In this document: positions 1-21,622 of the stretch, piece by piece
Numbering within the stretch: position 1 is the stretch's first letter
How the letters are laid out: each line of letters opens with the position of its first letter
NCBI RefSeq assembly: GCF_000374645.1
Contig: NZ_KB894800.1
Coordinates: 416,589 to 480,588 of the forward strand
Reading direction: 5' to 3'
DNA: 64,000 nt
Origin: Arhodomonas aquaeolei DSM 8974
GTDB taxonomy: Bacteria; Pseudomonadota; Gammaproteobacteria; Nitrococcales; Nitrococcaceae
Program-made: the position numbers and the translations under genes
Notes under the pieces: generated by a model
What the model was told of the DNA's origin: nothing
Seen by the model: only the letters and a program-made list of their open reading frames with translations
Databases searched by the model: none

Positions 1-705
1 CTGCTCGGGGCCGACTCGCAGCAGTGGGCCGCGCAAATGGTGGGGCAGCGCCGGGTACGGCGCTACACCACCTCCTATGGTGCCGATGGGCGCTCGGTGA
101 GCGAGCAGGTTGGCGATGAGGCGGTCATCCCACCGGACGAGTGGGGTGGACTCGGCCGGGTGCGCGACGGTATCGAGGCCGTGCTGATCCGCGGCGGTCG
201 CACCGTGCACCGCGTGGTCTGGCCGTTTCCCGACCGCCGCCAATGGCGCAAGGTGACACCGCCCCATCGCCCGGCGGCCTGGACCGATACCCTCCAGACT
301 GCACCGACGCCCTCGGGCGGTGACAGCGACCCGGATCCCACGGCGTCACCGCGCCCGGCAGCGGAATCGGCCCCTTCCCACCGCCCGGCCCCGGAGGGTG
401 GGGATCACGGCTCCCCGCCGGCGGCCGAGGCCCGCGCGGCTCAGGAGGATCGCACCGGTGGCGGTTCGCGCAGCGGCGAAGCCGGAAAGCCGTCCGGCAG
501 AGCGGGGCCCGCAGCACCGCACGACGGGAATGCCGCCTCCGGGAGCGGAGCGATTAAGGTTCCGGAGGAGCCGGCGATGGCCCCGGAGATCCCGGCGCAT
601 ACCCAGGGGCCCGACACCGGTGACACCACGCCCCGGCCGCGCCGACGGCTGGTCATCCGCCGTCCGCGCGGGGACGGCGCCGGCCCCGAGCGGGACGATC
701 GCTGA
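1..705 (+). CDS. TraD/TrwB-like type IV coupling protein, C-terminal part (5' truncated by window)
   Basis: The frame is open from base 1 to the stop at 703-705, so only the last 234 codons are present. The first 100 residues resemble the C-terminal end of conjugative coupling ATPases: a WAAQMVGQRRV stretch followed by a SYGADGRSVSEQ-type segment and a conserved WPFP region. The last ~120 residues are Pro/Ala/Gly/Asp-rich low complexity ending in Arg-rich sequence, as in many TraD tails that contact relaxase or DNA. Coupling proteins pump the relaxase-DNA complex into a type IV secretion channel. The ATPase domain with Walker motifs would lie upstream of the window. The stop overlaps the relaxase start by one base (TGATG), so the two are translationally linked. 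The identification rests on the tail and on the neighbour. Confidence 0.65.
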   Translation: MLGADSQQWAAQMVGQRRVRRYTTSYGADGRSVSEQVGDEAVIPPDEWGGLGRVRDGIEAVLIRGGRTVHRVVWPFPDRRQWRKVTPPHRPAAWTDTLQTAPTPSGGDSDPDPTASPRPAAESAPSHRPAPEGGDHGSPPAAEARAAQEDRTGGGSRSGEAGKPSGRAGPAAPHDGNAASGSGAIKVPEEPAMAPEIPAHTQGPDTGDTTPRPRRRLVIRRPRGDGAGPERDDR

Positions 706-4002: not shown

Positions 4003-4046
4003 CCGACAATCGTCTAAAGTGGCAAAGACTCCGACAGAATCGTCTA
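4003..4046 (+). promoter_or_regulatory. Direct repeat upstream of the BREX operon (candidate operator)
   Basis: CCGACAATCGTCTA (4003-4016) and CCGACAGAATCGTCTA (4031-4046) are two nearly identical direct copies, 28 bp apart start to start. Each is followed by a similar xGGCA sequence. They lie 30-75 bp before the start of the HTH gene that opens the operon. Two helical turns plus a few bases between copies is a plausible arrangement for cooperative binding of a small repressor. Binding by the neighbouring HTH protein is inference. Confidence 0.45.
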
Positions 4047-4076
4047 TATCGGCACTCACAGCGGTGGTAGCAATTG

Positions 4077-4271
4077 ATGGATGGCCGTTGGCTCTCCGTA
4101 GATGAGATCAGTGTGTACCTAGGCGTTAAGCGCGACACAGTCTATCGGTGGATTGCCCAGCGCAGTATGCCCGCGCACCGAGTCGGACGGCTCTGGAAAT
4201 TTAAGAGTGACGAGGTAGATGCGTGGGTCCGCAGCGGGGGGACGCGTGCGAGTGGCAAGCCCGATGCGTGA
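4077..4271 (+). CDS. Small excisionase/MerR-type helix-turn-helix protein, first gene of the BREX operon
   Basis: 64 aa from ATG 4077 (an upstream in-frame TTG at 4074 adds one residue). Almost the whole protein is a winged HTH of the excisionase-family DNA-binding domain: WLSVDEISVYLGVKRDTVYRWIAQ forms the HTH, followed by the typical MPAHRVGRLWKFK wing and DEVDAWV end. Such proteins serve as excisionases (Xis) or as small repressors. It overlaps the brxA start, and the repeated sequence upstream (4003-4046) is a natural target, so operon control is the likelier role. An excision role cannot be excluded because this is a mobile island. It is unrelated in size and fold to the WYL-domain regulator BrxR of other BREX loci. 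Confidence 0.8.
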   Translation: MDGRWLSVDEISVYLGVKRDTVYRWIAQRSMPAHRVGRLWKFKSDEVDAWVRSGGTRASGKPDA

Positions 4272-5073
4272 TGAAACCACTCTGCAACGCCTCGGCTTCA
4301 TGACTCATACCGGCGGTGTACACGCCTCTCGCACCATCATGCTCACCGAGCTATCCACGCTCTTCGACTGCGTTGGCGCGGACGCGCCACCATCCGCGTA
4401 TCGTGATGCGATTTGCCAGCAGAACTGTCTCGCCAAGCGTTCCGGGCGGAGCCGACTTCTTACGGCGCGACACCTTGCTGAAGCGTACGCGTTGGATCCC
4501 GCCAATCCGGTTTATGCAGGGCTGCGTTACTTCTGGGCTCGTGATGTATCCGCCCGCCCTCAACTAGCCTTGCTCGCAGCCGCCGCCCGGGACAGCCTGC
4601 TGCGCGACACCGCTCCCGCGATACTCGCTAGGCCACCGGGCACGCGTATCGAACGGGAGTGGGTGGAGGAACGAATCGAGTCACGCTGGCCCGAGCGCTT
4701 TAGCTCGGCGACCCGTAGGTCGGTCGCACAGAACCTCAACAGCAGCCTAACGAAGGCGGGCCTCCTTGGCGGCCGGCGAACCAAGATCCGCCGGCAGTTG
4801 AATCCCGCGATAGGCGCTGTTGCCTTCGCCTTCTACCTTGCATGGTTGCAGGGAGATAGAGGTGAGATCCTGCTACAGAATGTCTACTGCAAGCTGTTGA
4901 ACGTTACCAGTGAGCGCCTGCTGGAACTCGCAGGTCAGGCGTCGGCCAAGGGGTGGATGGTCATGCGCCGCGTGGATAACGTGGTAGATGTCGATTTTCC
5001 CGCTCTAACGGATGTGGTTACTCAGGCCATGCAAACCTCCGACAAGGGAACCGCACAGAGAATCAATCCATGA
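4264..5073 (+). CDS. brxA: BREX protein BrxA (DUF1819 family)
   Basis: 269 aa from ATG 4264, which overlaps the HTH stop by 8 bases. An in-frame ATG at 4219 would overlap much more. BrxA is a small, NusB-like, DNA-binding component of type 1 BREX. The match is by overall DUF1819 pattern: an early HTGGVHASRTIMLTELSTLF segment, a central ARHLAEAYAL segment, ERFSSATRRSVAQNLNSSLTKAGLL and a C-terminal LLNVTSERLLELAGQASAKGWM segment, followed directly by BrxB. Its ATGA junction with brxB (5070-5073) indicates translational coupling. Its exact biochemical role in restriction is unsettled in the family. Confidence 0.85.
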   Translation: MRDETTLQRLGFMTHTGGVHASRTIMLTELSTLFDCVGADAPPSAYRDAICQQNCLAKRSGRSRLLTARHLAEAYALDPANPVYAGLRYFWARDVSARPQLALLAAAARDSLLRDTAPAILARPPGTRIEREWVEERIESRWPERFSSATRRSVAQNLNSSLTKAGLLGGRRTKIRRQLNPAIGAVAFAFYLAWLQGDRGEILLQNVYCKLLNVTSERLLELAGQASAKGWMVMRRVDNVVDVDFPALTDVVTQAMQTSDKGTAQRINP

Positions 5074-5621
5074 GCAAGGTTAAGCGACTGATCGAGTCGT
5101 ATGCCCAGTTTATCCAGCTGCCTTGGCGGGACGACGCTGCTGCTGCGCAGCGGGTAGCGTTCTGCGTCTACCCGGAGACCGAGGAACTCCGCATCCGGGC
5201 CAACCTCGGGGAGTTCGAGCTGACGACCCGACAAAGCGGGCATGACTGGATCGCTTTTGACCTGAGTGACACCTTTGCGCGGTGGATGGCCGAACAGAAG
5301 TACGCGGAGGGATACTTCCGCTCTCCGTCAAAATTGCCCACGGTACTGCACCGCTACCTCGAGTGGCTGGTTGACGGCTTCGTCGCAAACCTCGACGCCA
5401 ATGAAGTTGATGACAACCATGTGGTCATGATCTACGGCGTTGGCAGTCTGTTCGGGCTGCTCAAGGTAAAGGAGGTTGTCGACCGCCTCGCACCCCATGT
5501 GCCTGGCAGACTGGTCGTGCTGTTTCCGGGCAGCTTCGAGCAAAACAACTACCGACTCCTGGATGGCTACGACGGCTGGAACTATCTCGCCACGCCGATC
5601 CTTCCCGATGGCGCAAGGTGA
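5070..5621 (+). CDS. brxB: BREX protein BrxB (DUF1788 family)
   Basis: 183 aa, of usual BrxB length. DUF1788 hallmarks are the central VVMIYGVGSLFGLLKVKEVVDRL segment and the C-terminal LVVLFPGSFEQNNYRLLDGYDGWNYLA segment, where P-G-x-x-x-x-N-x-Y-R-L-x-D is typical. BrxB is a core type 1 BREX protein required for defence and thought to act in a complex with BrxC and PglZ; it has no known enzymatic motif. The start overlaps the brxA stop (ATGA) and its own stop overlaps a GTG that could start a longer brxC. Confidence 0.92.
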   Translation: MSKVKRLIESYAQFIQLPWRDDAAAAQRVAFCVYPETEELRIRANLGEFELTTRQSGHDWIAFDLSDTFARWMAEQKYAEGYFRSPSKLPTVLHRYLEWLVDGFVANLDANEVDDNHVVMIYGVGSLFGLLKVKEVVDRLAPHVPGRLVVLFPGSFEQNNYRLLDGYDGWNYLATPILPDGAR

Positions 5622-5668
5622 GCTTGCAACCGAGACCGACTGCCTCCTGTACCGCAAGGAAAGGACGC

Positions 5669-8600
5669 ATGCGAAACCGCGAAATCTATGCCAAGGACCC
5701 ATCCCAGCAACGCTTGGAGAACGAGGGAGTGGCGTACGTCAACGACGACGCCAGCGACCGCGCCCAATCAGTACTCCGCTACGAGCTGGAGACCTTCGTC
5801 TGCGACGGCCAGTATGCCCGTGGCATGCAGGACATCCTAGACACCTACCTGCGCAACCTCAGCGGCGGTGCCTCACAGCAACCCGGTGTATGGATTAGCG
5901 GCTTCTTCGGGTCGGGCAAGTCGCACCTGGCCAAAGTGCTTCGCAACGTTTGGGAAGACTTCACCTTCGACGACGGCGCCACTGCGCGGGGGATCACTAC
6001 GCTGCCCCAAGAGATTGGTGACCAACTCAAAGAGTTGTCTACCCAGGGCAGGCGCCATGGAGGGCTGTTCGCCGCCTCAGGTACTTTGGGTGCGAGCTCG
6101 CGCGACAAGAGCGTGCGCCTTGCACTCCTGTCCGTCATTTTCCGCGCTGCCGGTCTCCCGCGGCAGTACCCCGTCGCACGTTTCGTCATGTGGCTGCGGG
6201 ATGAAGGCATTCTCGACGAGGTACGGAATGACGTCGAGGCTCGTGGCGATGACTGGCAGGAAGAGCTGGACAACTTCTACGTGGCGGAGTCGCTCCACGA
6301 GGCGCTGGTCAAGGCGAAGCCGAGGACGTTCAGCAGCGTAGAATCTTGTGCCGAGACGCTGAGCCACCTTTACCCGCACGTCACTGACGTCAGCAGCGAC
6401 GACATGCTCGAGGCGATTCGTCAGGCCATAAGTCGTGACGGCAAGATGCCCCTCACGTTGGTGGTGCTGGACGAAGTACAGCAGTACATCGGCTCCGATG
6501 GCCAACGCTCCATCGAGGTCCAGGAAGCCGTCGAGGCGTGTTGCAAGGAGCTCGGCAGCCGACTCATGTTCGTCGCAACCGGCCAGACCGCGATCACCGG
6601 CACCAGTAACCTGGCGCGCTTGCAGGGCCGCTTCACTACCCGCATCGAGCTCTCGGACGCCGACGTGGACGCAGTCATTCGCCAGGTGGTGCTGGCCAAG
6701 AAGCCCGATGCGAAGGGCCCCGTCACTGAGGTGATGGAGGAGAACCTAGGCGAGATTTCCCGTCACCTCGCTGATACTTCCATCGCGCATCGCCAGGAGG
6801 ATACCAGGCACTTCGCGCAGGACTATCCCATCCTGCCCGTACGTCGGCGCTTCTGGGACGCTGCGCTGCGGGTTCTCGACCAGACCGGCACTGATAGTCA
6901 GCTTCGCAACCAGCTGAGCATGATCCACAAGGCGATCCAGACCAACCTGGACGCGCCCTTGGGCAACATCATCCCGGCTGACTACCTCTACTTCGACGCC
7001 GCCGACCGGCTGTTACAGGCACGCATGCTGCCGCGCAAGCTGCATGACGCCACTCTGCGCTGGCTCGAGGGCAGCGAGGATGAGCACCTGATGGCGCGCG
7101 CCTGCGCGCTCGTGTTTCTGATCAACAAGGTGGCCGGCACCAATACCGAGCTCGGGCTGAAGCCGACGCTGAGCAACATCGCCGATCTGCTGGTGGACGA
7201 TCTTACGGCCGGAAGCAGCTCGCTGCGCGGTCACCTGCCAACATTGCTCGATCAATGCGAGTTCATCATTAAGGTCGGTGACCAATACCGCATTCAGACG
7301 GAGGAAAGCGCCGCTTGGAATGACGCCTTTCTCAGCCACAAGAACACGCTCGGCAACGCAACGCATCAGATCGAGACCGAGCGGGAAGACCTGATTCGGC
7401 AGCATTTCGCCAAACAGGTCGGGAATCTCTCATTGGCCCACGGGGAGGCGAAGGTTCCGCGGCCACTGTCCCCAGTATTCGACACGGTGCTGCCTGGCGA
7501 CGCGCCTGAGAAGCTCTACGTGTGGGTTCGCAACGGCTGGTCGGACGACGTGAGCCAGTTACGAGCCGACGCGCGTCAGGCGGGATCGGAATCTCCCACG
7601 TTATTCGTCTTTATCCCGAAGCGTTCTGCCGATGAGCTGCGAAATCAGCTGATCGAATACAAGGCGGCGACGGCCACCCTTGAGACCCGCGGCACGCCGG
7701 GTACCCCAGAGGGCCAGGAAGCTCAGGCCGCCATGCAGACCACGCGCGACACCGCCCAGCGACGGATCAACGAGTTGTTGGACGAGGCCTTCAGCGGCGC
7801 CCAGGTCTTCCAGGGCGGCGGTAACGAGCTCGTTGGTGCCACGCTGCGAGAAGCCATCCTCGAGGGGGCTGAAAATGCCCTGACGCGGCTTCACCCCAAG
7901 TTCCACCAGGCCGACCACTCGAACTGGGACAAGGTGTATGCCAAGGCCAAACAGGGTGCGCCCGACGCACTGAAGGCCGTGGGTCACGACGGTGAGCCGC
8001 AGGCCCATCCGGTCTGCAAGGCCATTCTCGGCTATCTAGGCAACGGTAAGAAGGGCAGCGAGATCCGCGAGCACTTCGAGCATGGCGAGTACGGCTGGCC
8101 ACAAGACGCCGTAGACGGCGCCCTGCAGGTGCTCCTGGTCGCCGGCCAGATCCGCACGGTCGATGGGACAGCGCCCCAGGACCTGGATCGCCGCGCCATT
8201 GGCAGGACCGAGTTCCGCGTGGAAGCCACCACAATATCCGCCAGCGAGCGCATCAAGATCCGTAAAGTGATGCAGAAGCTGGGCGTCCAGGCCAAAGCTG
8301 GGGAAGAGTCGCCCAAGGCGCCCGAGTTCGTCGAGAAGCTACGATCTCTGGCGGACCGTGCCGGTGGTGGTGCCCCACTACCACCTCCCCCTAGCACCGA
8401 TGCCCTCGAGGCAATACGCCTGAGCAGTGGCAATGACCAGCTCAAGGCCATCGTCACCAATCAGGACGAACTCCTCACTGCGATCGATGAGTGGCAGGCC
8501 ATCGCGGACAAGATTGCGCAGCGCCAGCCCGCCTGGGCAACTCTCATGCACCTGGCGAATTACGCCAGGGGCGAGCAAGACGCCGAGCCGCTGCTGGCTC

Positions 8601-9103
8601 AGGTGGATCAGATCCGTGAGCACCGCTCCCTGCTCGATGACCCGGACCCCATCCAACCCCTGCTGAGCAACCTCACGCAGTACTTCCGTGACGCCTTGAA
8701 TACCTTGCGGGAACGCTACGAAGCGGAGCATGCAGCGGGTATGGCGCGGCTGGAAGCAGATGAAAACTGGCAGCAATTGTCCCCCGAACAGCGCCATGAT
8801 CTCCTGGAACCGAAGCGCCTCACCAACGCCCACGCGCCGAAGATCGCACTCGGCTCCACCGACGAGGTACTGGAGACGTTAGAACGCGTGCGCCCGGAGG
8901 CCTTGGCCGACCGCATCGCCGCGCTGTCCAGCCGCTTCGATGAGGTTTTGACAGCGGCCGCGGAGGCCATGGAGCCCCAAGCCCAGTTCGTCAGGCTGCC
9001 GCGCCGCACACTCAAAAGCGAGGCCGAGATCGATGCCTGGCTGGAGGAAGCGCGCGATCAGCTCCAGCAGGCCCTGCAGGCCGGACCCGTGATCACCCAA
9101 TAG
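5669..9103 (+). CDS. brxC: BREX P-loop ATPase BrxC
   Basis: 1144 aa from ATG 5669, preceded by an AAGGAAAGGA ribosome site. A GTG at 5618 overlapping the brxB stop would add 17 unconserved residues. The N-terminal region has NREIYAKDP and then the P-loop GFFGSGKSHLAKVL near residues 78-91. A Walker B-like LTLVVLDEVQQYIG follows near 268-281 and an ATGQTAI sensor-like motif near 305. The long C-terminal half is helical with coiled-coil character. BrxC is the large AAA-type ATPase of the BREX complex, needed both for PglX-dependent host methylation and for phage exclusion. Length is typical for type 1 (about 1200 aa). Confidence 0.93.
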   Translation: MRNREIYAKDPSQQRLENEGVAYVNDDASDRAQSVLRYELETFVCDGQYARGMQDILDTYLRNLSGGASQQPGVWISGFFGSGKSHLAKVLRNVWEDFTFDDGATARGITTLPQEIGDQLKELSTQGRRHGGLFAASGTLGASSRDKSVRLALLSVIFRAAGLPRQYPVARFVMWLRDEGILDEVRNDVEARGDDWQEELDNFYVAESLHEALVKAKPRTFSSVESCAETLSHLYPHVTDVSSDDMLEAIRQAISRDGKMPLTLVVLDEVQQYIGSDGQRSIEVQEAVEACCKELGSRLMFVATGQTAITGTSNLARLQGRFTTRIELSDADVDAVIRQVVLAKKPDAKGPVTEVMEENLGEISRHLADTSIAHRQEDTRHFAQDYPILPVRRRFWDAALRVLDQTGTDSQLRNQLSMIHKAIQTNLDAPLGNIIPADYLYFDAADRLLQARMLPRKLHDATLRWLEGSEDEHLMARACALVFLINKVAGTNTELGLKPTLSNIADLLVDDLTAGSSSLRGHLPTLLDQCEFIIKVGDQYRIQTEESAAWNDAFLSHKNTLGNATHQIETEREDLIRQHFAKQVGNLSLAHGEAKVPRPLSPVFDTVLPGDAPEKLYVWVRNGWSDDVSQLRADARQAGSESPTLFVFIPKRSADELRNQLIEYKAATATLETRGTPGTPEGQEAQAAMQTTRDTAQRRINELLDEAFSGAQVFQGGGNELVGATLREAILEGAENALTRLHPKFHQADHSNWDKVYAKAKQGAPDALKAVGHDGEPQAHPVCKAILGYLGNGKKGSEIREHFEHGEYGWPQDAVDGALQVLLVAGQIRTVDGTAPQDLDRRAIGRTEFRVEATTISASERIKIRKVMQKLGVQAKAGEESPKAPEFVEKLRSLADRAGGGAPLPPPPSTDALEAIRLSSGNDQLKAIVTNQDELLTAIDEWQAIADKIAQRQPAWATLMHLANYARGEQDAEPLLAQVDQIREHRSLLDDPDPIQPLLSNLTQYFRDALNTLRERYEAEHAAGMARLEADENWQQLSPEQRHDLLEPKRLTNAHAPKIALGSTDEVLETLERVRPEALADRIAALSSRFDEVLTAAAEAMEPQAQFVRLPRRTLKSEAEIDAWLEEARDQLQQALQAGPVITQ

Positions 9104-9118
9104 GAGCGGCGACAGGGC

Positions 9119-10831
9119 ATGAGATCACGCCGCGATATCGAAGCGCTGCTGGAGGAGCTGGAGCACTACATCGCCGACGACCTGGAAGACCAGGACCTGG
9201 ACTTCAAGCAGTGGGACACCCAGAGCCTCGCCAAGGCCGTGAAGACGGTCGTCGACATGGCCATCTGCATGGTCAACGGTGGAGGCGGCAGCGTGGTGTT
9301 CGGCGTCGCTGACCGTATCTCGGGGCGCCAGCAGGCCGTGCTGGGCGTGCCGCCGGAAATCGACGTCAATGTGCTGAAGCGGGCCGTCTATGACCAGACT
9401 GACCCCCACATTACCCCGGTATTCGAGGAGCTCCATGTGCCGGAGGGCACCGGCCGGGTGCTGATCATGCAGGTGCATCCGGGCATGCCGCCCCATACCG
9501 ATACCAAGGGGGGCGGTACCATACGCATCGGCAAGGAGTGTAAACCGCTCACCGGCACCCAGCGCCGCAAGATCGGCGTGGAGACCGGCGATACCGATTA
9601 CACCGCCGAGACGCTGGGTCCCGTCGACGATGCCCTCTTCTCGCCTGTCGCCATGGAAGCGCTTCGCCACCTGGCACAGCGTGAAAGAGCCCCGGATGAA
9701 CTCCTGCGTCGCTCCGACCGGGAGTTGCTCGATACCCTGGGACTGATCCGCAAGGGACAGGTTACCCGCGCCGCTATCCTGTTGGCCGGTACCGAAGAAG
9801 CCCTGCGCGAGCACGTGCCGGGCCACCTGTGGACCTTCCTGCAGATGCGCTCCGATACCGACTACGGCGTTCGCGAGGACCGCGTCAGCGCCCTGCCCCT
9901 ATCGGTGCAGCGTATCGAGGAGCTGCTGGTGCCCTTCAACCCCATCACCACCGTGCAGCAGGGCATGTTTCACTTCGAGTACCGCACTTGGCCCGAGGTC
10001 GCGGTGCGCGAGGCGCTGATGAACGCCTTCTGTCACGGAGACCTGCGCCTCGCCGGCCCCGTGATGGTCAAGCTCTACCCCCAGCGCCTGGAGGTCAGCA
10101 ACAACGGTGGCTTCATCGCGGGGATCAGCGAGCACAACATCCTCCACCACCAGCCGGCCGCCCGAAACCCGCTGCTGGTCGATGCGCTGGTCAAGCTGCG
10201 CCTGGTCAACCGCAGCAACCTCGGGGTCAGCCGCATGTTTGAGGCCATGCTGATGGAAGGTAAGGAGCCCCCGGTGATCCGCGAGATTGGCGACTCCGTC
10301 TCGGTGATCTTCCAGAAGCGGGAGATCAATGCCGCGTTTCGGCGGTTCGTGGCCGAAGAGAGCGAGCGCGGCCGCAACCTCGGGGTCGATCAGCTGCTGC
10401 TACTGCAGTATTTCCTGCAGCACCCCGAGGTGGATACCGGCACAGCGGCGGGGCTCTGCCAGCGCACCGAGCCAGAAACCCGAGAGCTGCTCGCCGATAT
10501 GGAGCGACAGGGCTACGTCGAGCATGGGGGAAGCGGTCGCGGGGCCTACTGGAGCATTCACCCCGAACTCTATGCACGGCTTCGTGCCGATGGCAACGCG
10601 GAGACACGCCGCCGCATCGATTGGGATGCCGCCAAGACCCGGGTACTCAGCATCCTGATCGAACGCGCCAAGCGCGGCGAGGAGGGTCTGAGCAACAAGG
10701 AGATCCGCCAGATCACCCGCTTCGACCGCAACCACGCCTATCGCTTGATGCGCGAGCTACGGGAAGAAAACCCGCAGATCCAGCCCCCCGGGAAGGGCAA
10801 GCACGCCCGTTACGAATACCGCAATACGTAG
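9119..10831 (+). CDS. AlbA_2 (Schlafen AAA_4-like) and GHKL ATP-binding protein, BREX accessory
   Basis: 570 aa, 15 bp after brxC. Residues ~20-160 are an AlbA_2/divergent AAA_4 domain (LDFKQW, VDMAICMVNGGGGSVVFGV and GTIRIGKECKPLT). This is followed by a RecG-like ATP-binding C-terminal domain with a GHKL-type N box VREALMNAFCHGD near 295 and a VSNNGGFIAG motif near 326. The last 150 residues contain two winged-helix-like segments (440-500 and 520-560), consistent with DNA binding. Relatives are usually annotated as transcriptional regulators or RNA-binding ATPases; some occur in defence loci. It is not one of the six core BREX proteins. Its position inside the operon, between brxC and pglX, argues for regulation or modulation of BREX. 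Function is inferred, not known. Confidence 0.75.
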   Translation: MRSRRDIEALLEELEHYIADDLEDQDLDFKQWDTQSLAKAVKTVVDMAICMVNGGGGSVVFGVADRISGRQQAVLGVPPEIDVNVLKRAVYDQTDPHITPVFEELHVPEGTGRVLIMQVHPGMPPHTDTKGGGTIRIGKECKPLTGTQRRKIGVETGDTDYTAETLGPVDDALFSPVAMEALRHLAQRERAPDELLRRSDRELLDTLGLIRKGQVTRAAILLAGTEEALREHVPGHLWTFLQMRSDTDYGVREDRVSALPLSVQRIEELLVPFNPITTVQQGMFHFEYRTWPEVAVREALMNAFCHGDLRLAGPVMVKLYPQRLEVSNNGGFIAGISEHNILHHQPAARNPLLVDALVKLRLVNRSNLGVSRMFEAMLMEGKEPPVIREIGDSVSVIFQKREINAAFRRFVAEESERGRNLGVDQLLLLQYFLQHPEVDTGTAAGLCQRTEPETRELLADMERQGYVEHGGSGRGAYWSIHPELYARLRADGNAETRRRIDWDAAKTRVLSILIERAKRGEEGLSNKEIRQITRFDRNHAYRLMRELREENPQIQPPGKGKHARYEYRNT

Positions 10832-10833
10832 AG

Positions 10834-10893
10834 CAATGCGCTGCGCATTGGGGTGAGCATTAAACCCAGCTCAATGCGCGCTGCAATGCTCAC
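10834..10893. promoter_or_regulatory. Cluster of inverted repeats between the AlbA_2 gene and pglX
   Basis: CAATGCGC (10834-10841) and GCGCATTG (10843-10850) form a perfect 8-bp dyad with a one-base centre. GTGAGCATT (10853-10861) and AATGCTCAC (10885-10893) form a second, 9-bp dyad around a 23-bp spacer that itself holds another CAATGCGC (10872-10879). The shared AATGC core occurs about five times in 60 bp. This is the only sizeable gap inside the operon core (120 bp) and is a candidate operator, internal promoter control site or mRNA structure controlling pglX, the methyltransferase that must precede restriction. Confidence 0.5.
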
Positions 10894-10951
10894 GCGCAAT
10901 AAACACGCATTCGCAGGGAGAACGTTGGAAGGGATAAACAAGGACGGCAGC

Positions 10952-13900: not shown

Positions 13901-14419
13901 AAGGACGGCTTCTTGGCGCTGGTGAACTACCACAAGCTCGACTACAAGGCCCTGGAAACCCTCACCTACACCTACCTGGGCGACTGGATCACCCAGCAGA
14001 AGAAGCAGATCAGCGAGGGCATCGATGGCGCCGAGGCCCGCCTCGCCGCCGCCGAGGCGTTGCAGAAGAGCCTGGAGCTGATCCTCGAAGGCGAAGAGCC
14101 CTACGACATCTTCGTGCGCTGGAAGCCCCTGGAGGAGCAGCCCATAGGCTGGGATCCGGACCTCAATGATGGTGTGCGCCTCAACATTCGCCCCTTTATG
14201 ACTGCGCCAGACGTGAAGAAGAAGGGGGCCGGAGTCCTTCGCGATAAGCCCAACATCCACTGGAAGAAGGACCGCGGCAAGGACGTGGAATCCGCGCCGT
14301 GGTACGACCTAGGCCCCGAGCTGGGCGAGGCCAAGGGCGCCCGCATCAATGACCACCACCTGACGCTCGCGGAGAAGCGCAGGGCGAGAACGCAAGCAGG
14401 GAGCAACCGAGCAGGATGA
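10952..14419 (+). CDS. pglX: BREX adenine-specific DNA methyltransferase PglX
   Basis: 1155 aa from ATG 10952, which has AAGGA 7 bases upstream; a GTG at 10853 would lie inside an inverted repeat. Motif I is DPCCGSGHF near residue 300 (SAM binding) and the catalytic motif IV is N-V-P-Y at 481-484 instead of the commoner N-P-P-Y. PglX methylates the sixth-type adenine in the BREX recognition site of host DNA, marking self; phage DNA lacks the mark. The DNA between about 12,560 and 13,400 is clearly more AT-rich than the rest, and this part should be the target recognition domain. The C-terminal third returns to normal GC. The stop overlaps the next gene (ATGA, 14416-14419). Confidence 0.93.
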   Translation: MQPLDKTLRNQLDRTVRTARPVAEQAAEAALEQLGLGEENPPSYLGEDQRALRRRLRAHARSLGDPLKDGTQATTRLIHEVAYEHWHRMIFARFLAENELLMYDGVAITLEECEELAEEEAEQGERTNGWALAAQLASTMLPQVFRVDSPVFELTLAAEYQRELEDLLADLSVEVFHASDSLGWVYQFWQTDNKERINRSEVTIGADELPAVTQLFTEPYMVSFLLDNSLGAWWAARRLSEADLASAESEQELRDKASLPGVPLEYLRFVKDEETGHWTPAAGTFDAWPQSLAELKTLDPCCGSGHFLVAALLMLVPMRMEMEGLSPRDAVDAVLRDNLHGLEIDQRCVELAAFALALTAWRYPDAGGYRPLPELHLACSGLPISVAKEEWKALGLGRKNLTIALDWLYDSFKDAPILGSLLDPTRTRAAKIAHWEELSEALNQALSQENSDEELEAAVTAQGLAKAATLLGDRYHWVITNVPYLARGKQHPKLQQFCADHYPAAKNDLATVFLDRCLELCVEGGTTSNVLPQNWLFLSRNSLFRKKLLESEVWQVIARLGPGAFETISGEVVKAILIAISRGNNTVHSQEGLFKAVRRNLICGLDVAESRTIEEKSEKLRKDGLSVVSQAQQLSNPGFAIEIQNLSDISRVNDLAYVRGGITTGDSPKYRQAFWEQKRKSNLFSFQQSTVKSTQDFSGREFCLLWQNGDGALSWAAQNAGATIAGRDAWGKKGIAVTYTGSLKCSIYSGELFENVICTMVPNKPEHMPILWSFCRSPEFEEAVRTVNQKLSVDVRYFEKAPIDLSRWTKVAEEKYPHGLPEPYSNDPTQWIFHGHPCGSVIWDEAVKWTAHGPLRTDDTVLQVAVARLLGYRWPAELDPEMELAEEQREWVRRCEALLGHADRDGIVCLPAVRGERRAVDRLEALLADAYDDQWSATTRGKLLESVDHTGKDLESWLRDKFFAQHCKLFQNRPFIWHIWDGLKDGFLALVNYHKLDYKALETLTYTYLGDWITQQKKQISEGIDGAEARLAAAEALQKSLELILEGEEPYDIFVRWKPLEEQPIGWDPDLNDGVRLNIRPFMTAPDVKKKGAGVLRDKPNIHWKKDRGKDVESAPWYDLGPELGEAKGARINDHHLTLAEKRRARTQAGSNRAG
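12560..13400 (+). other. AT-rich target-recognition segment inside pglX
   Basis: Within an otherwise GC-rich gene, this stretch suddenly uses AAA, AAT, TTA, ATA and AGA codons and the coding frame stays open throughout. It begins just after the LPQNWLFLSRNS segment that follows the methyltransferase motifs and ends before SNDPTQWIFHGHP. In PglX and type I/IIG-like enzymes, this part holds the specificity domain. The compositional break suggests a module acquired by recombination from a lower-GC source. Limits are judged by eye. Confidence 0.6.
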
Positions 14420-16104
14420 CCAAGAAGATCAGTGGCGCGGAGTATCCGCTCGCCAAAATATTCAGTTCCGAGTTCGAGTACCGGATCCCGTCTTATCAGC
14501 GACCTTATGCATGGACCGTGGATCAGGCATCCGAGTTGTTTGATGACCTGTACGACTTCCATGTCAGTGAGGACGAGGAGGGTTACTTCCTGGGCAGCAT
14601 CGTGCTGATCAAGGAGGAGGGGAGGGCCGAAGCCGACGTGATTGATGGTCAGCAACGACTGACCAGCCTGACTGTCCTGCTGGCGGCTATTGCATCCCTG
14701 ATCGAGGGCGAGGAACATCGATCCACTCTCAACAAGTACATCATGGAGCCAGGCAACCCGTTTGAGGGACTTGAACCCAAACCGCGACTCACGCTGCGAG
14801 GGAAGGACCAAGACTTCTTCGCCCGGTACGTGCAGGGTATGCGCTTCGACGATCTCTTGGCGCTGGGCTCGCACACGCTGGAGAACGAAGCGCAAAAGAA
14901 CATTCAGGTGAACAGTCAGTTGTTTTTGAGCCGGGTTACCGATCGGTTTGGCAACGACCAGCAAGCGCTGCACCGGTTTGTAGGGTTTCTGCTACAACGC
15001 TGCTTTCTTGTTGCGGTATCCACACCCAGCCAGAAGTCGGCCTTTCGGGTGTTTTCGGTGATGAACAGTCGGGGGCTGGATTTGCAGCCGACCGACATTA
15101 TCAAGGCGGATGTTATCGGACAGCTGCCGTCCGAGGAAATGCAGGAGGTGTACAACGCGCGTTGGGAAGACATGGAGGTGGAGCTGGGGCGTTCCGGGTT
15201 CAACGATTTGTTCGCCTACGTGCGGATGATCTATGCCCAAGAGAAAGCGAAACGCGCGCTACTGGAAGAATTCCGGGATCATGTCCTCACACGAACCACC
15301 GGTGCGACGGCGTTGATCGAAGATGTTCTTGAGCCCTATGCGGAAACCCTCTCTACGTTGCGAGAGGTCAATTACGTCGCCGAAACCGATGCGGACAAAG
15401 TCAATCGCTATCTGCGTTGGCTTAACCGTATTGATAACTCCGACTGGATGCCGCCGGCGATGACCTTTCTCGCCGAACACAAGGATGACCCGACCTATGT
15501 CGAGTGGTTTTTCAACCGGCTCGAGCGACTTGCTGCGTATATGCACATCTGCGCACACAATGTAAACCAGCGGATCGAAAGGTATGCGCAGTTGATCGCT
15601 GCGTTGCAGCGGACCCATAGCCGGGACGATCGGGTGCAGGCCGTCGAATTAACAGAAGAGGAGAAGGCCGCAATGCGGCGCGCCTTGGATGGCGACATCT
15701 ACACCCTGACCGCGCGGCGCCGCAATTACCTGATGTTGCGGCTGGACTCGTTTGTCTCGGATGGCGCGGCCTCCTACGACCCGACGCTTCTCACCATCGA
15801 ACATGTTCTGCCTCAATCGGTACCGGAGTCCAGTGAGTGGGAGAAACACTGGCCGACGCCGGAGAAGAGAGCACAGTGGGTGCACCGTCTAGCCAACCTG
15901 GTGCCCTTGAACAAGCGGCGGAATTCCCAGGCGCAGAACTTCGACTTTGAGAGGAAGAAGAATGCCTATTTTCGCGGACGTAGCAATGTATCTTCTTATG
16001 CGCTGACCAGTCAGGTACTGGGACAGGAGGAATGGACGCCGGACGTTGTCCAGGAACGGCAGAAGTACCTGGTGGACGCGCTGGTCGACGGGTGGGATCT
16101 CTGA
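14416..16104 (+). CDS. brxU: DUF262-DUF1524 fusion enzyme, GmrSD/BrxU-like type IV restriction factor
   Basis: 562 aa. The N-terminal DUF262 (GmrS-like) domain has IPSYQRPYAW near 28-37 and the nucleotide-site motif VIDGQQRLTSLTVLLAAI near 75-92. The C-terminal DUF1524 (GmrD-like, HNH/beta-beta-alpha-Me nuclease) domain has LTIEHVLPQS near 459-468, then HRLANLVPLNKRRNSQAQN and KKNAYF. This arrangement, S and D parts in one chain, is that of BrxU, a nucleotide-dependent enzyme that cuts DNA with modified cytosines and is encoded inside some BREX loci. It sits between pglX and pglZ and overlaps pglX by 4 bp, so it is made with the BREX proteins. It would cover phages whose modified DNA escapes BREX. 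Substrate range here is unknown. Confidence 0.8.
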   Translation: MTKKISGAEYPLAKIFSSEFEYRIPSYQRPYAWTVDQASELFDDLYDFHVSEDEEGYFLGSIVLIKEEGRAEADVIDGQQRLTSLTVLLAAIASLIEGEEHRSTLNKYIMEPGNPFEGLEPKPRLTLRGKDQDFFARYVQGMRFDDLLALGSHTLENEAQKNIQVNSQLFLSRVTDRFGNDQQALHRFVGFLLQRCFLVAVSTPSQKSAFRVFSVMNSRGLDLQPTDIIKADVIGQLPSEEMQEVYNARWEDMEVELGRSGFNDLFAYVRMIYAQEKAKRALLEEFRDHVLTRTTGATALIEDVLEPYAETLSTLREVNYVAETDADKVNRYLRWLNRIDNSDWMPPAMTFLAEHKDDPTYVEWFFNRLERLAAYMHICAHNVNQRIERYAQLIAALQRTHSRDDRVQAVELTEEEKAAMRRALDGDIYTLTARRRNYLMLRLDSFVSDGAASYDPTLLTIEHVLPQSVPESSEWEKHWPTPEKRAQWVHRLANLVPLNKRRNSQAQNFDFERKKNAYFRGRSNVSSYALTSQVLGQEEWTPDVVQERQKYLVDALVDGWDL

Positions 16105-16109
16105 CACTC

Positions 16110-18443
16110 ATGGTACTGATCGAGCGGTTGGCCGAGGCGATTCGGCGAGCCTCCGCACATAACCCGGACGTGCAAGCGGCACCGGCCTGCATACTCTGGC
16201 CTGACCGGGAGCGCCTCTGGGAGCCGGTGATCGCGCAAATCCAGGCGCAGCTGCCGGAGCTTTTGGTGCTCGGTGACTATGCGCCGGAGGCGCGACGTGG
16301 TCCGGCGATCTGGCTGCGCTGCGCCATCGCCGGCACGCTGGACGACGTGACGGTCGATCCGGAAACGCCGCCAGTCATTTATCTGCCCGGCGTCGGCCGA
16401 CAGGACCTGCGCGCCATCAGCGAGTGTCCGGACTCCCTCAAACCGCTGGCGGAATTGCAGTATCGGGGCGTGCTGTGGTCGCAGGTGAACGCCAAGGACT
16501 GGACGCCGCGCGCCTTTCTCTCGTCCCAGCAGGGGGGCCTCGGGTTGGACATCCCAGGCGACAGTGCCACGCGCCAGGCCCTGCTGGCGGCGTTGCCCCG
16601 GCTGCTGAACGAAGAAGTCGAGGATCTGCAGGGCCAGCACCTGGACGTCGATGCGCTGAACACGCTGCTCACCGGGGGCGATCCCGTTCGCGACCTGCTG
16701 GACTGGCTCAGCCAACCGGAGGGCGTGAAGGCCAGCTTGCCAGCCGATGAATGGAAGGCCTTCTGCCATGTCTGCGCATCCCGCTATGGCGTACACCCCG
16801 AACAACACAGTGCGCTGGAAGCCGTCGAGAAACTCACCCAGCGACAGGGCACGTGGAAAACGGTGTGGACGCGCTTCGCGGAGGCGCCGCACCGTTATCC
16901 GGAGCTTATCCGGCAGATTCGCCAGCTTACGCCCCCAGACCTGGGGCTCTTTCCGGCTCCGGAAGACATGGAGGTCTGGCCGCAGCTCAACCGACAGGAG
17001 GAGGACAGGCTCTATGACGCCCTGTCCAGGTTGAGTGATCTGCCGGCCCACGAGGCTCGGGATCGGCTCGAGATGCTGGAGCGCGAGCATGGTATGCGCC
17101 GGGCGTGGGTGTGGGCCGAGCTGGGTGAAAGTCCTTTAGCCGTCGCCCTGGCGCCACTCGCCCAGCTTGCCCAGGTGACCCGGCGCAGCCTGGCCGGTGG
17201 CGAGCCCGAGGACATGCGCCAGGCCTATGCCGCCGACGGGTGGAAGGCGGATGATGCGCTGCTGACCACGCTGGCGGCAGTGAATGGGCAGCGTGAGCAG
17301 GAGGCCGTCTTCACCGCGATACGTACCGTCTACATGCGATGGGCCGACGAGGCGGCCCGTCACCTACAGCAAACCTGGCGGCCAGGAGTGGATGGGCTCA
17401 AACGGGGGGCCACCTCCCCTCGCGCACACGAAGAGGAGTGCGTGCTGTTCGTGGATGGCCTGCGGCTGGATTGCGGCAAGCGATTGGCCAAGAGGCTTGC
17501 CAGTCTGGGATTGGCGGTCGAGGAGCACACCGCCTGGGCGGCGTTGCCCAGTGTGACCGGGACCGGGAAATACGCGGTGGCACCCGTCCTGAATAGCGAT
17601 ACTCTCCACGAAGAACCCGCTGGTTATCAGTTCACGCCGATCACTCAGCACCTGTTCAAGAAGCTACTGCACGAGCACGGGTGGCAGGTGCTCGAGCGAC
17701 GCCAGGTGGAACGCCTGCACAAGGAGACACTGGACACCTCAAGGCCCGCCTGGTGTGAGTTTGGAGATATCGACCACGCCGGACACGAGCGCGGCTGGAA
17801 GCTGGCCCAGCATGTCGATGACATGTTGGCCGAGGTAGCGGAGCGCATCGAAGCCTTGCTGGCCCAGGGCTGGCCGCAGGTACGAGTGGTCACCGATCAC
17901 GGGTGGCTGCTTCTCCCTGGAGACCTGCCAAAGACGGAACTGTCTGCCAGCCTGGTAGAGACCAAGTGGGGACGCTGCGCGCAGCTAAAGCCCGGCGCGC
18001 GCACCGATGCGGTGCGCTTCCCCTGGTACTGGAATGAGCAGGCGCACTTCGCCCTCGCAGAGAGCATTCACTGTTTCAAGGCGGGCGAAAGCTATGCTCA
18101 TGGGGGCCTCAGCGTCCAGGAATGTGTCACGCCGGAGCTCGTCGTAACTGGTACCACCGGTCCTAGGCCCTCGGTATTGATTGACGATCTGGTGTGGAAA
18201 GGGCTGCGCTGCACACTGGCTGTGGAGGGAGACACCGACGGAATGACGTTGGACGTACGCCATCACGCTGGCGATCCGACAAGCAGCCTCGCTCTCTCCC
18301 CCAAGCCCTTCAAGACAGGTGGCAAGGCTTCGGTCGTGGTCGCCGATGACGATCGTGAGGGAGAGACAGCCCAGGCCGTCATTCTCGACAGCGCGGGACG
18401 GGTGATTGCGCAGCGCTCGACTACCGTCGGCGGCGAGCACTGA
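16110..18443 (+). CDS. pglZ: BREX PglZ, alkaline phosphatase superfamily protein
   Basis: 777 aa from ATG 16110, 5 bp after the previous stop; an in-frame start at 16032 would lie inside the upstream gene. The PglZ domain is in the C-terminal half: metal-binding motif VLFVDGLRLDCG near 445-456 and VVTDHGWLLLPG near 593-604, the Asp/His pair expected in alkaline-phosphatase-fold enzymes. PglZ is a core BREX protein required for defence and, in most systems, for methylation; nuclease or phosphatase-like activity has been proposed for the family. The N-terminal half is helical and less conserved, as in other type 1 proteins. Confidence 0.92.
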   Translation: MVLIERLAEAIRRASAHNPDVQAAPACILWPDRERLWEPVIAQIQAQLPELLVLGDYAPEARRGPAIWLRCAIAGTLDDVTVDPETPPVIYLPGVGRQDLRAISECPDSLKPLAELQYRGVLWSQVNAKDWTPRAFLSSQQGGLGLDIPGDSATRQALLAALPRLLNEEVEDLQGQHLDVDALNTLLTGGDPVRDLLDWLSQPEGVKASLPADEWKAFCHVCASRYGVHPEQHSALEAVEKLTQRQGTWKTVWTRFAEAPHRYPELIRQIRQLTPPDLGLFPAPEDMEVWPQLNRQEEDRLYDALSRLSDLPAHEARDRLEMLEREHGMRRAWVWAELGESPLAVALAPLAQLAQVTRRSLAGGEPEDMRQAYAADGWKADDALLTTLAAVNGQREQEAVFTAIRTVYMRWADEAARHLQQTWRPGVDGLKRGATSPRAHEEECVLFVDGLRLDCGKRLAKRLASLGLAVEEHTAWAALPSVTGTGKYAVAPVLNSDTLHEEPAGYQFTPITQHLFKKLLHEHGWQVLERRQVERLHKETLDTSRPAWCEFGDIDHAGHERGWKLAQHVDDMLAEVAERIEALLAQGWPQVRVVTDHGWLLLPGDLPKTELSASLVETKWGRCAQLKPGARTDAVRFPWYWNEQAHFALAESIHCFKAGESYAHGGLSVQECVTPELVVTGTTGPRPSVLIDDLVWKGLRCTLAVEGDTDGMTLDVRHHAGDPTSSLALSPKPFKTGGKASVVVADDDREGETAQAVILDSAGRVIAQRSTTVGGEH

Positions 18444-18456
18444 CAAAGGGGACTTC

Positions 18457-20517
18457 ATGGAACTCGATGAGCTCGATCGTAAGGCCGCCGAGCAACTGGA
18501 TGGTTTCTTGGTCCGCAAGGACCTGGTGCGGACCTTTGCCCGCCAGTTCCCAGTGCCGACTTACGTGGTGGAGTTTCTGCTCGGACGTTACTGCGCGAGC
18601 ACCGACCCGGAAGAAATCGAGGAGGGACTCGAGGTTGTCCAGCGACAGCTTCAGTCGCGCACCATCAAGGCTGGAGAGGAGGAGTTATTCAAGGCGCGCG
18701 CCCGGGAGAAGGGAGACATCAAGATCATTGACCTCATCCAGGCGCGGCTGGATACCAAGAGCGATAGCTACCTCGCCACCCTCCCGAGCCTGCGCCTGAA
18801 CGATGTGCGTATCCCCGAGGAATTGGTAAGCGAGCACGAGCGGATGCTGACCGGCGGCTTCTATGCGGAGGTCACCCTTGCGTATGACTCCGGTGTTGCC
18901 CAGGAACAGGGCGGACGCCCATTTGGTATTCGGGCGTTGCGCGAAATCCAGCTCTCCAAGCGCAATGTGCTCGAAGAGCTGGCACGGGCCCGGAGCGGCT
19001 TCACGACAGAGGAGTGGAAGGCGTTTCTGCTGCGCTCCACCGGCATCGAGCCCGCCGGGCTCACGGAGCGGCAGAAGGACGCGATACTGCTGCGAATGGT
19101 CCCCTTCGTGGAGCGCAACTATAACCTCGTCGAGCTGGGACCTCGAGGCACCGGGAAGAGCCACCTATTTCAGCAGGTGTCCCCTTACGCCCACCTGATC
19201 TCTGGCGGCAAGGCGACCGTGGCAAAGATGTTCGTCAACAACTCCAATGGCCAGCGTGGTCTGGTCTGCCAGTATGACGTGGTTTGTTTCGACGAGGTCT
19301 CCGGCATTTCCTTCGACAACAAGGATGGCGTCAACATCATGAAGGGCTACATGGAGTCCGGCGAATTCTCTCGAGGCAAGGAGAGTATCCGTGCGGACGG
19401 TTCGCTGGTGATGGTCGGGAACTTCGATGTGGACGTCGAGCATCAGCAGCGTATCGGGCATCTATTCGGTCCGCTCCCGGAGGAGATGCGCTACGACACC
19501 GCCTTTATGGACCGTATCCACGCCTTTTTGCCGGGCTGGGACGTACCCAAAGTTGGCAAAGACTTGCTGACCGATCATTTCGGTCTGGTAAGCGACTTCC
19601 TCTCCGAATGCTGGAGCCAACTACGCAACCAGAGTCGCGTCTCCCAGTGGCAGGGTCGAGTGTTCTTCGGTGGTGCCCTTTCAGGGCGAGACAGCAATGC
19701 CGTGAACAAGACGGCGAGCGGACTACTGAAGCTACTGTACCCGGGCCCCGAGTCGACGCCCAGTGATGAGGACCTCGAGTGGGCGATCCATATCGCCATG
19801 GAGGCGCGTCGACGCGTCAAGGAGCAGCAGAAACGCATCGGCGCCGCTGAGTTCCGTAACACACACTTCAGTTACACCATGGGCGAGGACGGCGTCGAGA
19901 AGTTCGTGGCAACCCCCGAGCTGCAGAGCGACAATAGCATTGGTAGCGACCCGCTGGAGCCCGGGCAGGTTTGGGCCATTAGTCCCGGCGGGCAGGCCAG
20001 TGGCGGCCAGGAAGAACATCCCGGCCTGTTCCGTATCGAGGTCAACGAAGCCCCCGGGTCGGGGGTGAAAATCCTGAATAAACCGATACCGCCAGCGTTT
20101 CGCGAGAGCGTCGGCTATGCCGAGCAAAATCTCTATAGCCGTTCGGCACAGCTTGTCGGCGACAAGGACCCCCGTCAGCATGAGTTTGCCGTCCAGCTTC
20201 GCGCGTTCGATGCGGCCAAAAGCGGTAGCAAATTGGGTGTCGCCGCCCTGATCGCCATGAGTTCGTCGTTGCTCAAGCGCAGCCTACGCGGAGGGCTAAT
20301 CGTAGTCGGGGAGATCAACTTGGGAGGCTCAATCGAACCAGTCCACAACCCAGTCACTCTGGTGGAGATTGCTGTCGAGAAGGGGGCCAGCGCCATTCTC
20401 ATGCCGGTCACCTGTCGAAAGCTGCTGTTCGACCTATCTGACGAGATGGCGACTAAGGTCGACATTCAGTTCTATTTGGATGCGCGTGATGCCCTGCTTA
20501 AGTCTTTAGGGGAATGA
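18457..20517 (+). CDS. brxL: BREX BrxL, AAA+ protein with Lon-like C-terminal domain
   Basis: 686 aa from ATG 18457 with an AAAGGGG ribosome site; a start at 18406 would overlap pglZ. Residues ~225-450 are the AAA+ core: LGPRGTGKSHLFQQ Walker A near 228-241, CFDEVSGISF Walker B near 278-287 and a VMVGNFDVDVEH sensor region. The last ~110 residues resemble the Lon protease fold (VAALIAMSSSLLKRS and VVGEINLGGSIEPVHNPVTLVEIA). The helix that carries the catalytic Lys in Lon reads HNPVTLVEIA here, so proteolysis is doubtful. BrxL forms a DNA-binding ATPase ring and marks the type 1 class of BREX. It is the last gene of the operon. Confidence 0.93.
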   Translation: MELDELDRKAAEQLDGFLVRKDLVRTFARQFPVPTYVVEFLLGRYCASTDPEEIEEGLEVVQRQLQSRTIKAGEEELFKARAREKGDIKIIDLIQARLDTKSDSYLATLPSLRLNDVRIPEELVSEHERMLTGGFYAEVTLAYDSGVAQEQGGRPFGIRALREIQLSKRNVLEELARARSGFTTEEWKAFLLRSTGIEPAGLTERQKDAILLRMVPFVERNYNLVELGPRGTGKSHLFQQVSPYAHLISGGKATVAKMFVNNSNGQRGLVCQYDVVCFDEVSGISFDNKDGVNIMKGYMESGEFSRGKESIRADGSLVMVGNFDVDVEHQQRIGHLFGPLPEEMRYDTAFMDRIHAFLPGWDVPKVGKDLLTDHFGLVSDFLSECWSQLRNQSRVSQWQGRVFFGGALSGRDSNAVNKTASGLLKLLYPGPESTPSDEDLEWAIHIAMEARRRVKEQQKRIGAAEFRNTHFSYTMGEDGVEKFVATPELQSDNSIGSDPLEPGQVWAISPGGQASGGQEEHPGLFRIEVNEAPGSGVKILNKPIPPAFRESVGYAEQNLYSRSAQLVGDKDPRQHEFAVQLRAFDAAKSGSKLGVAALIAMSSSLLKRSLRGGLIVVGEINLGGSIEPVHNPVTLVEIAVEKGASAILMPVTCRKLLFDLSDEMATKVDIQFYLDARDALLKSLGE

Positions 20518-21201: not shown

Positions 21202-21203
21202 TC

Positions 21204-21432: not shown

Positions 21433-21499
21433 AACGTATACTCCTTGGAGGTGACCAGAAGGAACGCCGCTGTGACTTTGCTGTGACTCGGAGGGAATC

Positions 21500-21527: not shown

Positions 21528-21535
21528 TGATTTTA

Positions 21536-21611
21536 TGGTGGCCAGGGAGAGAATCGAACTCCCGACACGGGGATTTTCAATCCCCTGCTCTACCGACTGA
21601 GCTACCTGGCC
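21536..21611 (-). tRNA. tRNA-Phe (GAA), CCA encoded
   Basis: 76 nt including the genomic CCA. Read on the minus strand: acceptor GGCCAGG pairs with the 3' CCTGGCC, D-arm GCTCAGTCGGTAGAGC, anticodon stem GGGGA/TCCCC with loop TTGAAAA (anticodon GAA), and T-arm GGGAGTTCGATTCTCTCCC-like. The 3' end faces the island, the usual geometry for integration into a tRNA gene. Confidence 0.97.
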
Positions 21612-21622
21612 CGAGGTCGGGT

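Follow-up and report, generated by a model that had tools for sequence, protein, structure and literature searches.

A type 1 BREX operon of Arhodomonas aquaeolei with accessory genes at two recurrent junctions

Are the genes that lie between the core genes of a bacteriophage exclusion (BREX) operon passengers, or are they parts of the system? The question is raised by a 64,000-nucleotide stretch of the genome of Arhodomonas aquaeolei DSM 8974 (contig NZ_KB894800.1, positions 416,589 to 480,588), hereafter the window, in which nine plus-strand genes between ∼4077 and 20517 form a type 1 BREX operon. Their order is HTH (helix-turn-helix)–BrxA–BrxB–BrxC–Schlafen–PglX–GmrSD–PglZ–BrxL: a Schlafen-type gene occupies the junction between brxC and pglX, and a GmrSD-type endonuclease gene that between pglX and pglZ. 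The type 1 system is complete, with PglZ of type B, and we consider it probable that the two recurrent junctions add a pair of accessory anti-phage enzymes to it and that the whole works in the manner set out below. Comparison with relatives adds a fixed position for the Schlafen gene, its co-inheritance with the core, an exchangeable C-terminal half and one-for-one swaps of cargo.

Core genes and the Schlafen-type protein at the brxC–pglX junction

Relatives were collected in one pattern scan with the window PglZ, which gave 69 loci and covers near relatives only. Gammaproteobacteria form the largest group (Halomonas, Kushneria, Marinobacter, Salinicola, Microbulbifer and others), alongside betaproteobacteria, Desulfobacterota, Chlorobiaceae, Bacteroidetes, Synergistaceae, Bacillaceae and others. 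Full operons were fetched for 33 of the loci, picked for long flanks, for spread and to take in most Schlafen carriers; with the window these make 34.

The initial annotation described a complete type 1 operon and named two findings to look for, an inactivated core gene and accessory genes unlinked to BREX in relatives. PADLOC recovers all six core proteins, intact and collinear, and NCBIfam and Pfam agree wherever they give a match; no core gene is broken, and relatives again carry both accessory genes at these junctions. Reading frames are unbroken in all nine genes, and the Walker, S-adenosylmethionine-binding, PglZ metal, DGQQR and HNH motifs are present. Conservation extends across the operons compared: BrxC keeps Walker A/B in 34 of 34, PglX keeps motif I in 33 of 33 (with small variants), PglZ its metal motifs in 32 of 32, and BrxL Walker A/B in 30 of 30. 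Measured against curated NCBIfam scores, BrxC and PglZ-B lie above the cut-off, PglX falls short of NF033452 (338 of 500 bits), and BrxL stays just under TIGR02653 (615 of 628 bits) and passes TIGR02688 (440 versus 329); the NCBIfam search gave no match for BrxA or BrxB. PglZ is placed in type B by NF033450 and is missed by Pfam PF08665. As we read the motif alignment, BrxL lacks a Lon serine where one would be expected, in agreement with what has been published on the family (PMC12839542). Motif IV of PglX (window residues 512–519) is NVPY or NVPF in 32 of the 33 PglX proteins of this clade, whereas the Salmonella PglX structure has NPPY (PMC11341690); its prevalence among relatives rules out NVPY as a sign of decay.

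The protein encoded between brxC and pglX matches the Pfam domains SLFN_AlbA_2 (58 bits) and HATPase_c_4. A profile of 18 relatives matches PDB entry 3lmm over most of its length (5e-42), together with the Schlafen domain of several SLFN entries, and 3lmm is again the top fold match in Foldseek. Residues E23, D28 and D65 align to E205, E210 and D248 of 5yd0 (with a chain offset of 13, by our own count); 5YD0 is rSLFN13-N, and in SLFN13 these three residues are needed for tRNA cleavage (PMC5862951). The triad E, D, D is kept in 19 of 19 members; in three distant members, which belong to other BREX loci, the second residue is E. Entry 3lmm itself, DIP2311 of Corynebacterium diphtheriae, is uncharacterized and ∼20% identical to the window protein, and the profile match begins at position 39, past the first two triad positions. 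The N-box, G1 and G2 of the GHKL domain are conserved (19 of 19), and the structural model can be read as ending in two winged-helix units. The sequence favours reading the protein as a Schlafen-type RNase to which GHKL and winged-helix parts are fused. The domain assignment of the initial annotation, AlbA_2 plus GHKL, stands; its description as an “ATP-dependent modulator” is less well supported, given the intact acidic triad.

Divergence of the Schlafen gene keeps step with that of the core. Over the 171 pairs formed by the 19 Schlafen-bearing operons, distance in the AlbA_2 domain correlates with distance in BrxC (Spearman 0.88), as does distance in PglZ (0.96) and in BrxA (0.95); the target-recognition region of PglX gives −0.04. 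The middle and C-terminal parts of the Schlafen protein give 0.50 and 0.47, rising to 0.75 each without three operons of an exchanged type. With those three left out, AlbA_2 and the middle part are 75–76% identical over 60 distant pairs, versus 64% for BrxC and 56% for PglZ. Operon pairs are non-independent, and all these figures are descriptive. “Inserted”, the term first applied to both extra genes, is consequently too simple for this one.

A search of 398 genomes across the phylum found 11 with a Schlafen match at 1e-20. Two matches exceed 90% identity, one of them the window itself, and both lie between brxC and pglX; the other nine reach no more than 32% identity, and their flanks of ∼1.5 kb show no window-type BREX gene. 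Plasmid carriage was sought in 72,556 records, with no match at 1e-30. Because it co-diverges with the core, keeps its junction and has close members seen only there, the Schlafen gene behaves as part of the BREX lineage: it appears to be a long-standing, co-inherited component of a portion of that lineage.

Junction contents and exchange among relatives

Junctions were read in those of the 69 loci longer than 6 kb. Of the 38 in which the brxC–pglX junction is readable, 22 have it empty (13–42 bp), 11 contain the Schlafen gene there, three a different gene pair and two a short stretch. The count of 11 leaves out six loci with the gene just upstream of pglX and brxC beyond the stretch (L033, L038, L039, L070, L077 and L082), as well as L076, which has only a distant Schlafen relative there; L166, the same place as L133, is not counted. 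Within the 34 full operons this junction holds Schlafen alone in 17, Schlafen with an ATPase pair in two, an ATPase pair without Schlafen in two, nothing in 11 and a short stretch in two. The Schlafen share of 19 in 34 is overstated by the choice of operons, and 11 of 38 is the figure unselected by content. In L135, L138 and L139 an ATPase of the HEC-01A-like cluster and a ∼153-aa protein, PIN-like in our reading, replace or join the Schlafen gene.

Occupation is the rule at the pglX–pglZ junction: 49 of 53 readable loci carry cargo and four are empty. It is visible in 32 of the 34 full operons (all except L135 and L144), where 29 are occupied and three empty; any GmrSD is present in 15 and a window-type GmrSD in seven, the content of L139 being blurred by a short PglX open reading frame (ORF, 428 aa). 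A count of the exact gene order, which the initial annotation had proposed, finds it in two of the 32 fully visible operons: the window and Microbulbifer sp. HZ11 share the content of both junctions, and in the latter the HTH gene is only a broken remnant. As a control we used eight distant PglZ-B places (∼41% identity) from 369 genomes of the class; pglX lies 73–93 bp from pglZ in three of them, and in the other five no pglX was seen within 1.5 kb.

Clustering sorts the pglX–pglZ cargo into many recurrent families, whose representatives match models for GmrSD, PtuA/PtuB (Septu), HEC-01A, HEC-02A, PDC-S19/DUF3644, AIPR/AbiU and Ppl; two cluster representatives (∼1080 aa and 431 aa) have no Pfam or PADLOC match. 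A family of 1079–1179 aa at this junction in L055, L034, L076, L077 and L027 is a candidate unknown defence gene, its L034 member having no Pfam or PADLOC match at 0.001. A protein of 428–432 aa in L041, L053, L084, L086 and L035 adjoins a member of the DUF3644/PDC-S19 cluster in five of five cases; its L086 member has no family match. In L023, L030 and L031 a 431–438-aa protein is paired with one of 617–659 aa whose sequence, in our reading, looks Hsp70/DnaK-like.

The GmrSD protein of the window joins a DUF262 domain with DGQQR to a DUF1524-type HNH that reads EHVLP, and the earlier call of a GmrSD/BrxU-type gene within the operon is borne out (Table 1). Window-type GmrSD proteins (61–76% identical) lie between pglX and pglZ in nine other loci, from Pseudomonadota and one Bacteroidetes bin. 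The same kind of phylum-wide test returned 10 matches at 1e-60: two belong to BREX operons, one of them the window itself and the other 75% identical, and the remaining eight are at most 55% identical, with no window-type BREX gene alongside. In otherwise near-identical operons the gene is replaced by a diverged copy; it behaves like exchangeable cargo.

What changes between close relatives is best seen in near pairs, defined as operons with BrxC at least 85% identical (68 pairs; L139 was dropped from PglX comparisons, which removes six). These relatives differ at the target-recognition region of PglX, often in pglX–pglZ cargo and, in some pairs, in the C-terminal half of the Schlafen protein. 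The recognition region (residues 600–800) is 21–54% identical in 61 of 62 comparable pairs and 94% in one, which fits its published role in determining specificity (PMC11341690). The first 99 Schlafen residues are 77–100% identical in all 42 comparable pairs, and residues 400–564 fall into two classes, 24–28% identical in 12 pairs and 71–100% in 30. The clearest case is that of Halomonas halodenitrificans and H. campaniensis: BrxC is 99%, PglZ 97% and BrxL 100% identical, as against 95% for the Schlafen N-terminus, 27% for its C-terminus and 26% for the PglX recognition region, and the pglX–pglZ cargo is unrelated. The metagenome-assembled genome (MAG) bin02 and Salinicola salarius differ by a swap of GmrSD for PtuAB, the rest being ∼83–99% alike in DNA with the PglX recognition region apart. 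Cargo does not differ in every pair: bin02 and an Alcanivorax MAG have both cargo genes in common.

Proposed working and competing readings

From the gene content, motifs, junction positions, conservation and att sites observed here we infer how the operon may work, including each enzymatic or immune step and the trigger. PglX would mark the host's own DNA at a non-palindromic motif that its target-recognition region specifies, and BrxA, BrxB, BrxC, PglZ and BrxL would block phage DNA that is unmarked; N6-methyladenine marking and exclusion of unmarked DNA are taken by analogy from established work on type 1 BREX. GmrSD would cut phage DNA whose modified bases evade BREX, a division for which plasmid pEFER, with BREX and BrxU as complementary layers, offers a precedent (PMC8565348). 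The Schlafen–GHKL–winged-helix protein would most likely be a metal-dependent RNase that shuts down translation, its GHKL/winged-helix part sensing phage or BREX failure as the trigger. A backup, abortive layer is how Schlafen RNases are read in PMC12839542, and by analogy it is the role we favour here.

Several points weigh against this account. The second carboxylate of the triad is Asp rather than Glu in 19 of 19 members, a difference that might lower activity or remove it altogether. In human SLFN5-N and mouse SLFN1 the key residues are retained, yet neither cleaved the tRNAs tested (PMC5862951), so the triad is no proof of RNase activity; and because the Schlafen domain is poor in the AlphaFold model (predicted local distance difference test, pLDDT, below 50 for residues 1–160), the active site is predicted from sequence and not from structure. 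Many relatives lack the Schlafen gene, which is hence not required in all, and 17 of 34 operons have either no HTH gene or a damaged one. The HNH motif of GmrSD is EHVLP, not the DHIYP of BrxU. Three of the eight distant PglZ-B places are free of cargo between pglX and pglZ, which limits generality. Finally, no operon is 85% or more identical to the window in BrxC, and the window is in none of the 68 near pairs; the swaps are therefore observed among relatives and not at the window.

Some of these points would suit a different protein altogether: an ATP-dependent, DNA-binding regulator or modulator of the BREX operon with no nuclease activity. The conserved GHKL boxes (19 of 19), the modelled C-terminal winged helices, the Asp at the second place, the SLFN proteins in which the key residues are present but tRNA was left uncut (PMC5862951) and the listing of 3lmm, the closest solved protein, as uncharacterized all point this way. 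We nevertheless think it unlikely that the protein is a regulator: each of the 19 members has an acidic residue at every one of the three Schlafen catalytic positions, the AlbA_2 domain tracks the core best among the protein's parts, and a small HTH gene is already present in the operon. A further alternative leaves the enzymes as they are and makes both genes unrelated passengers, lodged in junctions that are permissive between translation units and defending independently of BREX. Contents of the pglX–pglZ junction do change freely, and both BREX-linked BrxU (PMC8565348) and BREX-linked BxaP (PMC10799925) protect alone; for GmrSD passenger status is quite plausible. The Schlafen gene argues otherwise, being conserved, co-diverging with the core and having close members seen only at brxC–pglX; for both genes together this explanation is less likely than not.

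Greater integration than we propose can also be imagined. GmrSD could be a cutting arm of the BREX lineage that reads the methylation state set by BREX, rather than a type IV enzyme; the nine other loci with a window-type GmrSD at pglX–pglZ fit such a role, but of 32 operons only seven have a window-type GmrSD and 15 a GmrSD of any type, the junction is empty in three, and the gene is replaced by a diverged copy in operons that otherwise hardly differ, all of which makes it very improbable. Also put forward tentatively is the idea that this lineage of PglZ-B BREX is a modular platform: the Schlafen RNase would be a co-inherited seventh subunit with an exchangeable sensor half, guarding the core and firing when phages disable BREX, and pglX–pglZ would be a docking port. 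That whole defence systems (Septu PtuAB, AIPR/AbiU, GmrSD, ATPase–nuclease pairs) would be swapped at this port by recombination, with the core remaining almost unchanged, is an equally tentative part of the idea.

Gene models, host element and related systems

Coordinates are given in Table 1. The initial annotation started the operon at 4003, where the frame contains stops and no gene begins; its leading HTH gene is confirmed as an ORF starting at 4074 (TTG) or 4077 (ATG). Genes were also said to be mostly overlapping. The packing is indeed tight, but several ORFs probably begin further downstream than called: the profiles align from residue 17 of BrxA, 18 of BrxC, 34 of PglX, 28 of PglZ and 18 of BrxL, which suggests true starts near 4264, 5669, 10952, 16110 and 18457, respectively. 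With these starts the only overlaps are BrxA/BrxB (4 nt), PglX/GmrSD (4 nt) and HTH/BrxA (8 nt). Expression as one unit, also proposed, is only suggested by gene spacing; in the StySA BREX of Salmonella an incomplete terminator separates brxC from pglX, and two or more transcripts are made (PMC9009780). GC content is 0.56–0.66 in the operon versus ∼0.67–0.76 in other parts of the window, 20001–22000 excepted.

Table 1. Coordinates of the operon genes and of the element that carries them (window positions unless a locus is named).
Feature	Position	Strand	Evidence and remarks
HTH_17 / excisionase-type DNA-binding protein, MAD1-like, 64 aa	4077..4271	+	PADLOC, NCBIfam and Pfam searches; ORF from TTG 4074
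BrxA	4264..5073	+	PADLOC 289 bits, profile match from residue 17; ORF from 4219
BrxB	5070..5621	+	PADLOC 243 bits; Pfam PF08747
BrxC ATPase	5618..9103	+	PADLOC 1584 bits; NF033441 955 bits; likely start 5669
Schlafen AlbA_2 + GHKL (HATPase_c_4) + winged-helix protein, 570 aa, brxC–pglX junction	9119..10831	+	Pfam; triad; PDB 3lmm match
PglX adenine methyltransferase / specificity protein	10853..14419	+	PADLOC 1783 bits; Eco57I domain (Pfam); likely start 10952
GmrSD / DUF262-HNH endonuclease, BrxU-type, 562 aa, pglX–pglZ junction	14416..16104	+	Pfam GmrSD_N and GmrSD_C; PADLOC Orf5 551 bits
PglZ type B	16110..18443	+	PADLOC 995 bits; NF033450 897 bits; ORF from 16032
BrxL	18457..20517	+	PADLOC 982 bits; Pfam BrxL_ATPase and BrxL_N; ORF from TTG 18406
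TrwC-type relaxase-helicase	705..3416	+	Pfam TrwC 273 bits
tRNA-Phe(gaa), element integration site	21536..21611	-	ARAGORN
Right att copy, 51 bp	21536..21586		Exact repeat of the tRNA 3′ end
Left att copy, identical 51 bp	L167:12462-12512		∼7.5 kb left of the window
Phage-type integrase with Arm-DNA-bind_3	L167:12665-13885		Just inside the left att copy

The small HTH protein is a possible regulator of the operon. By tblastn its gene is intact in 17 of 34 operons and damaged in two; in L138 and L145 (also L105 and L116) it is degraded upstream of brxA with brxA to brxC still open, the decay taking the form of an internal deletion in Kushneria and of a short remnant with a stop in Microbulbifer. 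It is intact in 15 of 19 operons with the Schlafen gene versus 2 of 15 others. A functional pairing of the two genes was considered and set aside, as the tree gives four to six independent contrasts on supported branches and a sign test is not significant (median p 0.625). Membership of MADS was likewise rejected: the HTH protein reaches 74.9 of 80 bits for MAD1, and in a PADLOC check of the operon proteins the other eight have no mad model among the matches listed. The idea of a conserved operator ahead of the HTH gene was also discarded, a direct repeat holding ATCGTCTA being found in the window only and in none of 33 other upstream stretches.

The operon is cargo of a ∼29-kb, relaxase-bearing element integrated at tRNA-Phe, and the transfer-related island of the initial annotation is thereby given its boundaries by the att repeat, with an integrase and the TrwC relaxase. 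The 3′ end of the tRNA gene faces the operon; on the side of the left att copy (L167) no tRNA gene was found. The ∼29.1 kb between the att copies hold an AAA_25 gene, which we read as RepA-like, the TrwC relaxase-helicase and the BREX operon. Because a Pfam search of nine further element ORFs, not every ORF, found no conjugation-pore gene, the element looks mobilisable rather than self-transmissible. A second BREX, of type 2, is present in the same genome on contig C26:22001-37882 (L170), with PglX, PglY/BrxC, PglZ, BrxD and BrxHI.

Type 1 BREX systems of E. coli HS, Salmonella StySA and pEFER share with the window six core genes in the same order, a PglX with methylase and target-recognition region, and a BrxL without Lon serine. 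Their PglZ is of another form than type B. The pEFER operon is led by a WYL-type BrxR, that of the window by the small HTH_17 gene; both include a DUF262-HNH enzyme of GmrSD type, but brxU lies between brxC and pglX, where the window has the Schlafen gene, its GmrSD being at pglX–pglZ (PMC8565348). In StySA accessory ATPase and DUF4435 genes are listed between pglX and pglZ and regarded as acquired later; the position is shared and the cargo differs, and the word Schlafen is absent from the text of that paper (PMC9009780). BREX-linked Schlafen RNases with a minimal histidine kinase and winged helix, the same architecture as in the window, have been reported from at least 1017 taxa in a paper that also lists GmrSD and ATPase–nuclease pairs, often flanked by BREX genes (PMC12839542). 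Both junctions thus have precedents in other type 1 BREX systems, and both accessory families are published in BREX. In the portions covered, PMC12839542 does not describe the fixed junction, exchange of the C-terminal half or co-divergence with the core, and its main text does not contain the words swap, slot, mosaic or Septu.

Published work lists nucleases that accompany BREX; the present comparison concerns where they sit and what changes in operons that are otherwise near-constant. The pairs H. halodenitrificans/H. campaniensis and bin02 MAG/S. salarius are natural allele swaps with which the Schlafen C-terminal half and the cargo can be tested. Residual immunity under PglZ inhibition has been ascribed to uncharacterized compensatory mechanisms (PMC12839542); if the Schlafen protein is a true guard subunit of BREX, it might help explain that immunity.

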